From Lachnospiraceae bacterium (lineage in GTDB: Bacteria > Bacillota > Clostridia > Lachnospirales > Lachnospiraceae), in NCBI GenBank assembly GCA_014804785.1, contig JAAUZD010000020.1, forward strand, positions 18,488 through 71,687: DNA of 53,200 nt, in the 5' to 3' direction. Shown here one piece after another: positions 3,489 to 6,535 of the stretch (within the stretch, counting starts at the first letter, position 1; the number at the start of each line of letters is the position of its first letter). The notes beneath the pieces are model-generated. The model made no database searches. It saw only the letters and a list, made by a program, of their open reading frames with translations, and was not told where the DNA came from. The translations under genes were made by a program, and so were the position numbers.

Positions 3489-5237
3489 CTAAAATGAAAT
3501 TTCCACAAACCTTCCATCCCTGCTCAGCGCAAAATGCAGATGTGAACCGGTACTTCCGCCTGTGTTTCCCACCGTGGCAATCTGCTCTCCCTGTTCTACC
3601 CTCTGTCCTGTCTCTGCCAAGATCTCATCGCAATGGGCATAATAAGTCATATCTCCATTGTCATGCTGGAGAATCACGTAATTTCCACAGTACGCATCCG
3701 TTCCTGTCTCAAACACAAGCCCCGAGGCGGCAGCTTTCACCGGAGTTCCTGTTTCGGCGGCAAAGTCAATGCCGCTGTGCATTTTTCTTTCCTGCGTCAC
3801 TGGATGAATCCGTTCCCCATATACATCCGATACACGGCTGTATTCCGTAGGACAGATATATTCAATCAGTGTATCATTGTATGCGCCTTCTGCCTGCCGC
3901 AGCAAAACGGAATGCTTATCAGGCTCCCAAGCATAATATACATGCTCCGTTATCATATCTTCATCAGAAGGTATATCTACTTGCGTAATCTGCTCTGTCG
4001 GCAAATGTGTCGAATCTTCTACCCGGATCTGCTCTGCCGGCAGATAAGTCATCTCTTCCACCAGTATCTGTTCTTCTGAAAGTTCATCTTCAAAAATATA
4101 TTCTGTCTCCATATTGCTGTCTGTTCCGGGAACCGATTCCTTATCTACATCCTGCTTTTCCTGAGGAATCATTTCCGCCTCTTTTGCCACTGCTTCCCCT
4201 TCTGATACAGCCAAATTCCATTTCCCATTTACCAACAGCAAAGCCGCGACAGCAAAAACTCCCACTGCCAAAATCACCATGACCCAGCTTTTTGTCTCTT
4301 TCAGCCTGACCACATTTTTAATTCTTGTCTTCACGCTTTTTTCTCCGAAGGCAATCAGGCACCCTACCTCTATCCGCTCTCCTGAAAGATATAAAAGGGT
4401 ATCTACATATGCTTTCCGATTCTCATATCCTGTCTTTTTCAGCACTGCCTCATCACAGGATAGTTCCATATCTTTTTCCATAAAATGAAATGCCACCCAG
4501 ACAAGGGGATTAAACCAATGAATGCACACTCCTATAAAAGAAGCAGGCTTGATCAGATAATCCCAGCGCGCAATATGCACCATCTCGTGAGCGATTACCA
4601 ACTCCTGTTGCTTCTTTGACAGTCCCTGGGGAAGATAGATCACAGGTCTGAACACTCCGGAAACAAAGGGATCCCTGACACCTTCCGCTACCACGACTTT
4701 ACACCTTTTTCCGTAATCCGTCCTGATTTTTTCTTCGGAAGTCCTCTTCTCCCCCGACACACCTTCTCTCAGCTTTTTTTGAAACAACAGATAACTTATC
4801 AAACCATACAAAAGCAAAAGAATGCAGCCTGCAAAATAGATACCAGCTGCAAAAGTCCATGCCCCTTTCACCTTCATCAACGCATCTGCCGCAGTTTTTG
4901 GGAATTCACTCGTTTCCATTCCTGCTTCCTTTATCTGCACCTTCTCATCTGCAGCACTCTCATAAAGAAGCCGCAGCCTTTCCGCCGACTGCCTATCCTC
5001 TCCTACTGCCCAGAGATTCGTTCCTGCCCCTGCCTCTATGAAACTGAAACTCGGGATAATCCCCCAATTTGTTTCCGGCAAAAAAGGACATACAAGCCGG
5101 AAAAACACCACGATCCACAAAATATAAGAGAAAATCCTGGGCGCCCGCTTCAGGAAAAGCCGAAGCAGCAGCACTGCCAAGATCACAACAGAAGATGCAA
5201 TGCTCATATTCAATACGGTGATAAACATTCTTATCAT
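3489..5237 (-). CDS. BlaR1/MecR1-type M56 sensor peptidase fused to an M23 peptidase domain
   Basis: 582 aa membrane protein. The N-terminal half is an M56 antirepressor: paired membrane segments at about 5-30, 35-55 and 125-150, the zinc motif HEMVH at 217-221, and the downstream DMELSCDEAVLK helix. A further span lies at about 315-335. The outer C-terminal part, which in BlaR1 is a beta-lactam-binding domain, is instead an acidic linker (345-430) followed by an M23/LytM peptidase domain with HSGID (487-491) and HLHF (566-569), so both zinc sites are intact. It overlaps the BlaI gene by 4 nt (ATGA), which indicates translational coupling. It probably senses or acts on the cell wall and inactivates the BlaI repressor. 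The signal is unknown. Confidence 0.88.
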   Translation of the reverse strand: MIRMFITVLNMSIASSVVILAVLLLRLFLKRAPRIFSYILWIVVFFRLVCPFLPETNWGIIPSFSFIEAGAGTNLWAVGEDRQSAERLRLLYESAADEKVQIKEAGMETSEFPKTAADALMKVKGAWTFAAGIYFAGCILLLLYGLISYLLFQKKLREGVSGEKRTSEEKIRTDYGKRCKVVVAEGVRDPFVSGVFRPVIYLPQGLSKKQQELVIAHEMVHIARWDYLIKPASFIGVCIHWFNPLVWVAFHFMEKDMELSCDEAVLKKTGYENRKAYVDTLLYLSGERIEVGCLIAFGEKSVKTRIKNVVRLKETKSWVMVILAVGVFAVAALLLVNGKWNLAVSEGEAVAKEAEMIPQEKQDVDKESVPGTDSNMETEYIFEDELSEEQILVEEMTYLPAEQIRVEDSTHLPTEQITQVDIPSDEDMITEHVYYAWEPDKHSVLLRQAEGAYNDTLIEYICPTEYSRVSDVYGERIHPVTQERKMHSGIDFAAETGTPVKAAASGLVFETGTDAYCGNYVILQHDNGDMTYYAHCDEILAETGQRVEQGEQIATVGNTGGSTGSHLHFALSRDGRFVEISF

Positions 5238-5620
5238 TCCAGGCAGTCCCCTTTCTCCTCATCCTTCAGATTTTCATCTATAAATCGTCTCATTTCCTCC
5301 GCCTCCTGCAAAGAAAGCTTCCTTCCGCTGCAAAATGCCGTCAGAAACCGCGGCAATGAGCCTGCAAATACGTTCTCCACATACTCTCTGCTCTGGGCGC
5401 CATAAAATTCTTCTTTGCTCATTCTGGCACGCACCATGGTATTTTCATTCTGAAAGATTCCTTTATCACACAGCTTTTTTAAAACTGTATAGGTCGTTGA
5501 TTTTTTCCAGTTCATTTCCTTTTCACAAATTTTCACCAGCTCCGGTGAGGGCAACGGTTCTCTCTCCCATATGATCTCCGCAAACCTCTTCTCCGCATCT
5601 GCCAGCCTATATCCTCCCAT
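5234..5620 (-). CDS. BlaI/MecI/CopY-family transcriptional repressor
   Basis: 128 aa. An N-terminal winged helix (LADAEKRFAEIIWEREPL, then WKKSTTYTVLKKLCDKG) is followed by a C-terminal dimerisation helix, as in BlaI/MecI. It is the first gene of a two-gene operon with the M56 sensor, by analogy its antirepressor. Two matching 19-bp dyads in the promoter are likely its own operators, which would give autoregulation. Confidence 0.92.
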   Translation of the reverse strand: MGGYRLADAEKRFAEIIWEREPLPSPELVKICEKEMNWKKSTTYTVLKKLCDKGIFQNENTMVRARMSKEEFYGAQSREYVENVFAGSLPRFLTAFCSGRKLSLQEAEEMRRFIDENLKDEEKGDCLE

Positions 5621-5667: not shown

Positions 5668-5717
5668 AGTCTATAATTTATAGACTAGCTATATTTCCAG
5701 TCTACTTCCTATAGACC
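5668..5717 (-). promoter_or_regulatory. BlaI-type tandem operators over the promoter
   Basis: Two 19-bp dyads, AGTCTATAATTTATAGACT (5668-5686) and AGTCTACTTCCTATAGACC (5699-5717), share AGTCTA-N7-TAGAC and have centres 31 bp (three turns) apart. On the minus strand a promoter is embedded in them: -35 TAGACT, 16-nt spacer, -10 TATAAA. Repressor binding would block it. Confidence 0.75.
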
Positions 5718-5747
5718 GTTTTGTCAAGAAAAATTAATTTTCGATAA

Positions 5748-6278
5748 CTACCTTTTTTCTTCACCCTTATATTGTAAAGCTAAACGTTCAATATCTTTAA
5801 AGTCTATACATCTTTTAGATACTACATGCTCGGGTTTATTACATTTTAAACTATATAGTTCTTTAGCTTTAGTCCCAATATCCATGGAATTGATAGCCGA
5901 CAACTCAATATCTAACAAATCAATATATTTACTCTTTTCCTTTTCAGAGGTAAATGTTCTATAAGTATGTATTTGGTTTTTCTCAAAGGGGAAGACTTCC
6001 GATTTTGGAATGGGAAACATATAATTTAAATTAATTACAGCTATTAATCTGGTCGGACTTTTGGGATCATAAACTTTATAAAAATCTTTTTGTTGTTTTA
6101 ATTTGTTATGTCTTGGTTGTGCATGCGATACTTGCGTAATGTAATACAATCCGTCTTTTTCAAATAAAATTCCAAAAAATGGCTTATACCTGTCTTCACC
6201 ATAATCTGTCCTCGGTATTCTTTTTTCTACATTTCTCAAGTAATCTAAGTATTGCTCGTTTACATTAATCCATTTCAT
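5748..6278 (-). CDS. Type III toxin, ToxN/AbiQ family endoribonuclease
   Basis: 176 aa, close to ToxN and AbiQ (about 170 aa). Family landmarks are the N-terminal 'I-N-x-x-Y-x-x-Y-L-R' start, KPFFGILFE (32-40), the basic active-site region VSHAQPRHNKLK (about 50-61) followed by DFYKV, and NLNYMFPIP (83-91). These proteins are endoribonucleases inhibited by a repeat RNA. A longer reading from 6323 is possible in frame, but that first ATG lies inside a hairpin; GGAG before the ATG at 6278 supports this start. Immediately upstream are three tandem repeats and a promoter, the classic antitoxin-toxin order. No protein antitoxin is present. Confidence 0.88.
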   Translation of the reverse strand: MKWINVNEQYLDYLRNVEKRIPRTDYGEDRYKPFFGILFEKDGLYYITQVSHAQPRHNKLKQQKDFYKVYDPKSPTRLIAVINLNYMFPIPKSEVFPFEKNQIHTYRTFTSEKEKSKYIDLLDIELSAINSMDIGTKAKELYSLKCNKPEHVVSKRCIDFKDIERLALQYKGEEKR

Positions 6279-6292
6279 CTTTTGCTCCAACA

Positions 6293-6325
6293 ACAATGGA
6301 GAAGCTGATAACAACTCCTCCATTA
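6293..6325 (-). terminator. Hairpin between antitoxin repeats and ToxN-like gene
   Basis: On the minus strand TGGAGGAG pairs with CTTCTCCA (8 bp, one G-U) around a 10-nt loop, followed by the T-rich TTGTTGTT. In type III systems an attenuating hairpin between repeats and toxin sets the antitoxin excess. This one is weaker than a standard terminator. Confidence 0.55.
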
Positions 6326-6445
6326 ATACGATTTTGACAGGCTTCGTAACCTCTATTAATACAGTATTTGTTAGGCTCTGTAACCTCTATTAATACGATT
6401 TTGATTGGCTTCGTAACCAACTAAAGAAATCACTTGGGATTTCTT
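6322..6445 (-). ncRNA. ToxI-type antitoxin RNA with three 33-34 nt repeats
   Basis: Repeat units begin (plus strand ATTAATAC) at 6322, 6355 and 6389, a period of 33-34. On the RNA each unit reads GGTTACGAAGCC, then TCAAAATCGTATTAAT, or a variant. Within a unit GGTT pairs with AGCC, and the loop segment TACGA pairs with downstream TCGTA, which makes an H-type pseudoknot. The middle unit has TACAG and CTGTA instead, so the pairing is kept by compensatory change. The RNA starts with an 8-bp hairpin (6424-6445). By family precedent the units bind and inhibit the downstream toxin. Confidence 0.85.
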
Positions 6446-6451
6446 AATCAT

Positions 6452-6480
6452 ATTATATCCAAAAACAAAAGAATATGCAA
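6452..6480 (-). promoter_or_regulatory. Promoter of the ToxI-type antitoxin
   Basis: -35 TTGCAT (6480-6475), 17-nt spacer, -10 TATAAT (6457-6452) on the minus strand. The predicted start is near 6445, exactly where the first RNA hairpin begins. Confidence 0.8.
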
Positions 6481-6498
6481 CGAACATAAAATAAATAT

Positions 6499-6535
6499 TC
6501 TGTAAATAAATGCAAAAAAATTTACTATTTACAGA
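6499..6535 (-). terminator. Possible terminator of the ABC transporter operon
   Basis: 10-bp perfect AT-rich stem (TCTGTAAATA/TATTTACAGA) with a 17-nt loop overlapping the stop codon of the last permease gene, followed on the minus strand by ATATTTATTTT. It separates the operon from the type III locus. Confidence 0.5.

Follow-up and report, generated by a model that had tools for sequence, protein, structure and literature searches.

The closest described relatives of the locus analyzed here are the ToxIN systems of P. atrosepticum, B. thuringiensis, and E. coli and the AbiQ/antiQ system of Lactococcus. In the available portions of the published descriptions, a tandem repeat array upstream of the toxin gene is a criterion for type III systems (PMC5086642, PMC8860590), and units of the ToxIN family are given as 34 to 36 nt long and present in 2.8 to 5.5 copies (PMC5086642). 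Four active-site residues, including Ser53 and Lys55, have been placed in the E. coli ToxN, and the substitutions Lys33Ala, Thr52Val, and Lys55Ala allow growth, i.e., toxicity is lost, according to the part of that report available to us (PMC8860590). Such residues are a feature of the characterized ToxN proteins and did not appear among the membership criteria in the available parts of the published texts.

We analyzed a stretch of 53,200 nucleotides (here called the window) from a Lachnospiraceae genome and found in it what is, at a probability of roughly 0.87, a chromosomal type III toxin-antitoxin locus of the ToxIN kind. By its layout it is an ordinary member of this group, while the active site of its toxin and the unlike units of its antitoxin make it a new variant.

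Results

Organization of the locus. A preliminary description of this DNA had proposed a complete ToxIN-type locus, and all of the anatomical elements that it named were found, together with a toxin that is clearly a member of the ToxN family by profile and predicted fold. On the minus strand the order is promoter-like hexamers, leader hairpin, three antitoxin units, a strong hairpin, a GGAG ribosome-binding site read from the sequence (6285..6288), and the toxin gene (5748..6278). The toxin open reading frame starts with the ATG at 6278 and has its stop ending at 5748; the frame as listed extends further upstream, to an in-frame ATG that falls within the RNA region (6323). The G+C content of the locus is about 30%, compared with 42 to 50% around it, and the genome carries one copy of the ToxN family. 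The neighbors proposed earlier were also as described: BlaI-like and BlaR1-like (M56) genes were confirmed by domain search on one side, and ABC transporter genes were identified on the other by reading open reading frames. The BlaR1-like M56 protein (3489..5237, minus strand) ends in an M23 peptidase domain, and the BlaI-like repressor is encoded at 5234..5620. Several TATAGACT-like half sites, recognized by eye at 5668..5718 between the toxin stop and BlaI, are perhaps a BlaI operator.

The 176-amino-acid protein had been called ToxN/AbiQ-like, with a search against ToxN family profiles as the suggested check, and this search gave a match to Pfam PF13958 (ToxN_toxin) of 149 bits, against a cut-off of 25 bits, that covered positions 1 to 159 of the 159-position profile. 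The PADLOC AbiQ model matched at 73 bits, and the solved ToxN proteins 2xd0, 7d8o, and 4ato were matched by sequence, while a search of NCBIfam gave nothing at an E value of 0.001. The predicted structure of the toxin had a mean pLDDT of 76 and a pTM of 0.73; it was built from four sequences (the window and the related loci L002, L004, and L005), and the five models spanned pLDDT values from 40 to 76. When this model was compared with solved structures by Foldseek, only 2xd0, 7d8o, 4glk (AbiQ), and 4ato were found at E values of 0.001 or lower, with TM scores of 0.68 to 0.81 by either length (0.73 to 0.78 for 2xd0, 0.76 to 0.81 for 4glk, 0.72 to 0.75 for 4ato, and 0.68 to 0.73 for 7d8o). The fifth match was CptN (4rmo; E value of 0.0016, TM score of 0.38 to 0.42), which was not found by sequence search from the window toxin, and MazF-like structures followed at E values above 0.1. 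On this ranking, the modeled fold places the toxin with ToxN and AbiQ rather than with CptN. Low dN/dS ratios against L002 (0.083) and L003 (0.041), calculated at high dS (1.3 and 2.9, respectively; dS was saturated against L004 and L005), indicate that the toxin is under purifying selection.

Putative promoter, leader, and terminator-like hairpin. The promoter named in the preliminary description is readable as TTGCAT (putative -35 hexamer, 6475..6480) and TATAAT (putative -10 hexamer, 6452..6457) at a spacing of 17 nt, both recognized by eye. TTGCAT agrees with the consensus at three of six positions and also occurs in L003 and L100 with the same spacing and in L005 with 16 nt; TATAAT, TATAGT, or TATACT precedes the array at places chosen by eye in the 11 loci printed. 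The RNA would begin with the leader hairpin claimed earlier (AAGAAATC/GATTTCTT, 6424..6445), which folds with a z score of -3.1 and may protect the 5' end. A hairpin in this position, between the -10 hexamer and the array, was present in 11 of 11 loci folded, at z scores from -1.8 to -6.7 relative to mononucleotide shuffles of stretches marked by eye, and its sequence is unlike from locus to locus (AAGAAAUC, AAGAAAGU, AAAGAUGA, ACAGAUA, and others). The hairpin ahead of the toxin gene had been described as weak, which is the one part of that claim we must correct: its 60-nt fold contains 14 pairs and has an energy of -19.5 kcal/mol. It lies at 6296..6323 and is followed by a tail with interrupted T runs (TTGTTGTT), so that the element as a whole (6289..6323) is a probable leaky terminator; a strong hairpin stood between array and toxin in all 11 loci folded. 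A consensus scan of the window listed neither a promoter nor a terminator for the RNA, and both calls therefore rest on position and on recurrence in relatives. Array, leader hairpin, and pretoxin hairpin all recurred in the five relatives of the same clade that were folded (L002 to L005 and L100). The 191-nt RNA region as a whole had a fold z score of -4.06, and none of 200 shuffles folded as well. Rfam contained no family matching the window RNA at threshold (there was one subthreshold miRNA match) and gave no antitoxin at the gathering threshold for the 14 of 144 loci searched. The same database placed an S10-Clostridia ribosomal leader near the ToxIN locus L016 (1255-1335, minus strand).

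Relatives, viral copies, and genomic position. A scan of genome contigs yielded five relatives with 64 to 97% identity, in metagenome-assembled genomes titled Lachnospiraceae, Butyrivibrio, or Agathobacter, and all five carried the same kind of three-unit array. The closest copy, L006 (G035:C36), one of these five, is 98% identical over 783 nt, which corresponds to the whole locus (5736..6518). Its toxin frame is broken, and in L003 the expected toxin start is not an ATG; decay or misassembly may therefore have affected some copies. In a quick-search tree of 84 toxins, the window grouped with L002 to L005 and L100 (support of 99, starred; stem of 1.16), and this clade joined the L009 group (97, starred). 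Units of the kind seen in the window are also found in L100, which comes from a different family within the order. Among 397 genomes sampled from the family, the next-best toxin match after the window's own genome was 35% identical, and the repeat pattern occurred in the own genome only; PF13958 was present in 52 of 392 genomes sampled from the order and in 16 of 398 sampled from the phylum. The survey of relatives, family, order, and phylum gave 93 distinct ToxN loci. At G082:C14, two of the surveyed matches to the ToxN family (L018 and L034) follow one another, with starts 856 bp apart.

Two members of the clade lie on contigs of 159 kb (L149) and 132 kb (L150) whose phage status rests on the IMG/VR collection. 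They were found with an alignment as the query, after an initial protein search of the viral contigs had given no match. Their toxins are 55% and 46% identical to that of the window, respectively, and both match phrog_9764, of unknown function. One gene beside L149 had no PHROG match, and two of three genes beside L150 matched PHROGs of unknown function. In L149 (1850-2522), each of the three units has its own stem 2 (ACGA/UCGU, AUAG/CUAU, and ACGG/CCGU), and a hairpin stands before the toxin, while the second of the two units of L150 (1895-2513) abuts the toxin start with no hairpin between them, so that this pseudoknot may itself cover the toxin start. INPHARED phages contained no toxin match at an E value of 1e-5, and 76 plasmid records matched, all below 60% identity, with the 20 listed at 25.6 to 31.3%. 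A search for phage-borne mimics of the antitoxin with a 17-mer from the unit junction gave 14 matches in viral contigs, one in each and with no second unit within 60 nt by a simple pattern; we attribute these to chance.

We also considered that the locus might be a mobile cassette, since the copy in G035 has different immediate neighbors. That copy is flanked by different DNA, 3.2 kb and 8.7 kb long, in which reading of open reading frames revealed a uvrA-like gene with a broken frame and, on the opposite side, an operon for sugar use, but beyond these it lies between the same BlaI (94%) and ABC permease (93%) stretches as in the window. G035 thus shares the position of the window with DNA gained or lost around the locus, and a recent move is not supported. 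In the same region of G035 (L144 2418-5528), the toxin orthologue and the adjacent uvrA-like gene, named as such by reading of the frame, are both frame broken.

Antitoxin units of the window clade. The three repeats of 33 to 34 nt proposed in the preliminary description were recovered as direct repeats (3.1 copies of 33 nt), which gives the window the upstream tandem array of the published type III systems. By repeat search and alignment, unit 1 (33 nt) is at 6386..6418, unit 2 (34 nt) at 6352..6385, and unit 3 (33 nt) at 6319..6351. In each unit, GGUU/AGCC forms stem 1, and four bases of the loop form stem 2 with a downstream strand, the topology of an H-type pseudoknot. Stem 2 is ACGA/UCGU in units 1 and 3 and ACAG/CUGU in unit 2, i.e., a compensated change within a single array. 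This order (CGA-CAG-CGA) was also found in L003 and L004, while L005 has units of the ACGA/UCGU kind only and L002 has units of the ACAG/CUGU kind only.

Fourteen distinct units from five loci had standard pairs in 112 of 112 pair cells and included 10 double-change cells, and neither value was reached by any of 500 shuffles; sliding the partner strand by one to three columns in the same units reduced pairing to 22 to 46%. Addition of L100 and the two viral loci gave 22 distinct units from eight loci, with 94.9% of 176 cells paired and 22 double changes (0 of 500 shuffles). Eight of the nine nonstandard cells in this set were in stem 1, where MAFFT places L100 out of register and some units have U-U at the third pair. 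In the sister group (L009, L010, L037, and L038; L077 repeats two of their units), stem 2 was paired in 40 of 40 cells of eight distinct units, with 6 double-change cells (0 of 500 shuffles); one unit has GAGCG/UGCUC and the other GAUUG/CAAUC, except that L038 is alike in both. Two of the five covariation measures did not exceed the shuffles because few columns vary: the number of pairs with a double change was reached by 447 of 500 shuffles in the 14-unit set and by 343 of 500 in the sister group, and the number of further pair types was reached by 500 (14-unit set), 483 (sister group), and 500 (22-unit set) of 500. All of these shuffles ignore kinship among the loci. Stem 2 is formed inside the unit: in the window, L003, and L004, a strand makes a run of 5 pairs with its own partner and of 0 to 1 with that of a neighbor. 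On the covariation, rather than on a solved structure, we assign the antitoxin unit as an H-type pseudoknot.

Predicted pseudoknots in the wider ToxN family. For a wider test, the copies delimited by Tandem Repeats Finder were aligned to their own consensus, so that copies were not chosen by pairing, although the pair columns were. Forty-two of 54 arrays qualified; the others lacked either a consensus pseudoknot or a second copy. In the 34 pair columns that vary within an array, 82 cells were paired and 10 were not; columns derived from a consensus favor paired cells, and the arrays of the window clade are related to one another. Double changes were seen in 14 cells of the 42 arrays, compared with 5.0 expected after permutation (0 of 500 permutations reached 14) and 0 to 1 in slid controls. 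They were distributed over 10 arrays, four from the window clade (L003, L004, L007, which is the window itself, and L100) and six from outside it (L011, L044, L048, L085, L087, and L114).

A scan for predicted pseudoknots between positions -190 and -38, which left out L006 and three loci that were too short, detected two or more units in 64 of 89 loci, 42 of which had three or more. The corresponding numbers were 146 and 13 of 1,068 for dinucleotide shuffles and 34 and 8 of 213 for stretches before open reading frames of at least 200 amino acids; these control frames came from the window and loci L009 to L121 and were uncurated, so a few may be long ToxN frames. Tandem Repeats Finder detected no array with a period of 26 to 62 in the 450 nt before the gene (a few stretches were cut short) in 38 of the 93 distinct loci. 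Of these, 35 were amenable to the pseudoknot scan, and 22 of the 35 held at least two predicted pseudoknots, compared with 146 of 1,068 shuffled stretches. Some loci without a detected repeat resemble strings of different pseudoknots, namely L047 and L091 (UCUCA/UGAGA, UCUUG/CAAGA, and UUCGC/GCGA followed by G or A), L090 (UCUCA/UGAGA, UCUCUU/AAGAGA, and UUCGC/GCGAA), and L119 (the first two of L090), although these were selected by their pairing and are therefore weaker evidence. For comparison, three units of the same topology were seen in L123, a locus on a Lactococcus plasmid with a ToxN/AbiQ family annotation, with GGUG/CACC or GGUG/UACC as stem 1 and UCUC/GAGA as stem 2. An automatic sorting of arrays by like or unlike stem 2, which had called 33 of 53 unlike, was dropped as a count; on inspection by eye, several of the pairs that it called unlike extend into the leader or the terminator hairpin (L016, L039, L038, and unit 1 of L004).

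Why the units differ. The explanation that we favor, with some reserve, is neutral compensated drift, in which the stems need only pair, copies diverge, and recombination now and then makes them alike again. It is ranked first because like and unlike arrays are mixed within one clade: L002, with three nearly identical copies (98%), is the tree row nearest to the heterotypic window (support of 80), and its array looks as if recently made alike. The fact that speaks against drift is the retention of the CGA-CAG-CGA order in the window, L003, and L004, even though the toxins of L003 and L004 are only 81% and 77% identical to that of the window.

We regard it as rather unlikely, and rank it second, that the unlikeness is itself selected, i.e., that differing neighboring stems prevent cross-pairing in the precursor or a collapse of the array through slipped recombination, or yield a ring with one of each unit. 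The middle unit differs from both neighbors in the window, L003, L004, and L100, no two units are alike in L149 or L150, and the compensated differences in 10 of the 42 arrays of the wider family point in the same direction. Additionally, in seven arrays typed for cross-pairing, which were picked because they are unlike, cross-pairs between neighbors were weaker than own pairs by duplex energy. However, window units 1 and 3 can cross-pair fully, and the unit 2 strand of L100 forms 4 pairs with its neighbors and 3 with its own partner, so that only energies separate the two. Like units also are tolerated, since L002 and L005 have the same stem throughout and the copies in L016, L018, and L022 are 100% identical.

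The active-site segment. In 2xd0 numbering, the window toxin retains Lys33 but has Ser for Thr52, His for Ser53, Gln for Lys55, and Gln for Pro50, and thus lacks the full Lys33, Thr52, Ser53, and Lys55 set of the characterized ToxN proteins. Across the 93 rows of the family alignment, position 57 is Lys in 77; it is Trp in 2xd0 and Arg in the window toxin, which has His at position 58. Gln at position 55 and Gln at position 50 each occurred in 6 of the 93 rows, which are the six rows of the window clade as printed. In the subclade of the window, His53 was found in 8 of 8 members and Gln55 in 7 of 8, and the segment TQ[V/I]SH was present in all 8; the viral members read TQVSHPKQKH (L149) and TQVSHPQRKH (L150).

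Catalysis may differ or be weak in this toxin, because Ser53 and Lys55 are replaced and Lys55Ala abolishes the toxicity of E. coli ToxN (PMC8860590, available part). We nevertheless consider it improbable that the type III anatomy has been kept while the RNase chemistry was lost or changed, leaving an RNA-binding regulator or a weak nuclease. The fixed TQ[V/I]SH segment, the confinement of Gln55 to the window clade, and the broken L006 copy would suit such a change. Against it, Lys33 is kept, Ser occupies position 52 in 64 of the 93 rows, His53 occurs in 12 more rows outside the clade, Arg57 and His58 are present, and L149 retains Lys55. CptN is active with a Ser-Ser/Thr-Arg triad, as stated in the accessible part of its description (PMC4627078), and the window toxin appears to be under purifying selection, albeit as estimated at high dS. 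His53 would, speculatively, suit an acid or base as in RNase A.

Finally, the reading that this is no toxin-antitoxin system and that chance repeats stand beside an ordinary gene, for which one could cite the empty promoter and terminator scan, is refuted by the PF13958 match, the fold match, conservation, and the covariation in the 14- and 22-unit sets, and the 12-mer GGTTACRRAGCC has just three exact matches in the 3.97-Mb genome, one in each unit.

Discussion

By analogy with its family, the locus would work as follows. One promoter would give an RNA with a protective 5' hairpin and three H-type pseudoknots of 33 to 34 nt; the hairpin before the toxin gene would stop most transcripts, and some would read through into the toxin. 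The ToxN-fold protein, as an endoribonuclease, would cut the precursor between units, with the UUAAUAGA junction as our guess for the cut site, and the cut pseudoknots would hold the toxin inactive in a closed protein-RNA ring until loss of the RNA, for example, during phage infection, set it free. RNase activity, processing, neutralization, ring assembly, and phage defense are thus carried over from the family, while the toxin homology, the predicted fold, the array, the hairpins in leader and terminator positions, the covariation of the pseudoknot, and the signature of purifying selection were observed here. The stems can vary provided that pairing is kept, most likely because what the toxin recognizes is chiefly the A-rich loop and the single-stranded tails, and this freedom would explain how a single array can hold units that are unlike yet fold equally.

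Unlike units of equal fold amount to a natural mutational scan of the antitoxin: the parts that differ, the stems, are those the toxin does not need to read, and the constant parts, the tails and the A-rich loop, are probably those it reads. The copies within one locus allow the pseudoknot to be supported from inside the array, and their unlikeness suggests why searches based on tandem repeats miss loci. The changed active site makes it possible to test directly which residues are required for ToxN chemistry. The compensated differences between units and the unusual active-site segment both go beyond the preliminary description. Compensated differences between units were not mentioned in the literature searched, including the available portions of PMC5086642, PMC8860590, PMC4627078, and PMC12373285; the 2012 classification paper and the 2013 paper on ToxIN selectivity were outside this search, and the observation may be in print. 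A far broader generalization, which we put forward tentatively and think will more probably fail than hold, is that many type III antitoxins are strings of distinct pseudoknots with matched stems, that selection keeps neighbors unlike, that a good part of them escape repeat-based detection, and that the window clade adds a rebuilt RNase active site, with His for the catalytic Ser, and carriage by large viruses of bacteria.

Among known systems, AbiF of C. difficile likewise includes an RNA antitoxin, whose two structured motifs lie upstream of the toxin. In the available part of its description, engineered compensatory stem changes left neutralization unaffected, the motifs are separated by 19 nt, the detected transcripts carried both, and the structural model is said to differ from that of ToxIN (PMC12373285). 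CptIN, from the related gut bacterium Eubacterium rectale, also is a type III system with a pseudoknotted antitoxin and a variant active-site triad, but its complex is a heterotetramer and the CptI units are 45 nt long (PMC4627078, available part), a length that the 33- to 34-nt units of the window do not have. Overall, the window most resembles ToxIN and AbiQ/antiQ, with which it shares the PF13958 toxin, the ToxN/AbiQ fold, the order of RNA array, hairpin, and toxin, the short length of the units, and an H-type pseudoknot in which the loop pairs with a downstream strand. It differs from them in the replacement of Ser53 by His, Lys55 by Gln, and Pro50 by Gln, in the unit junction, which is UUAAUAGAGG here and AAAAGCGG in many other arrays, and in the compensated stem of its second unit.
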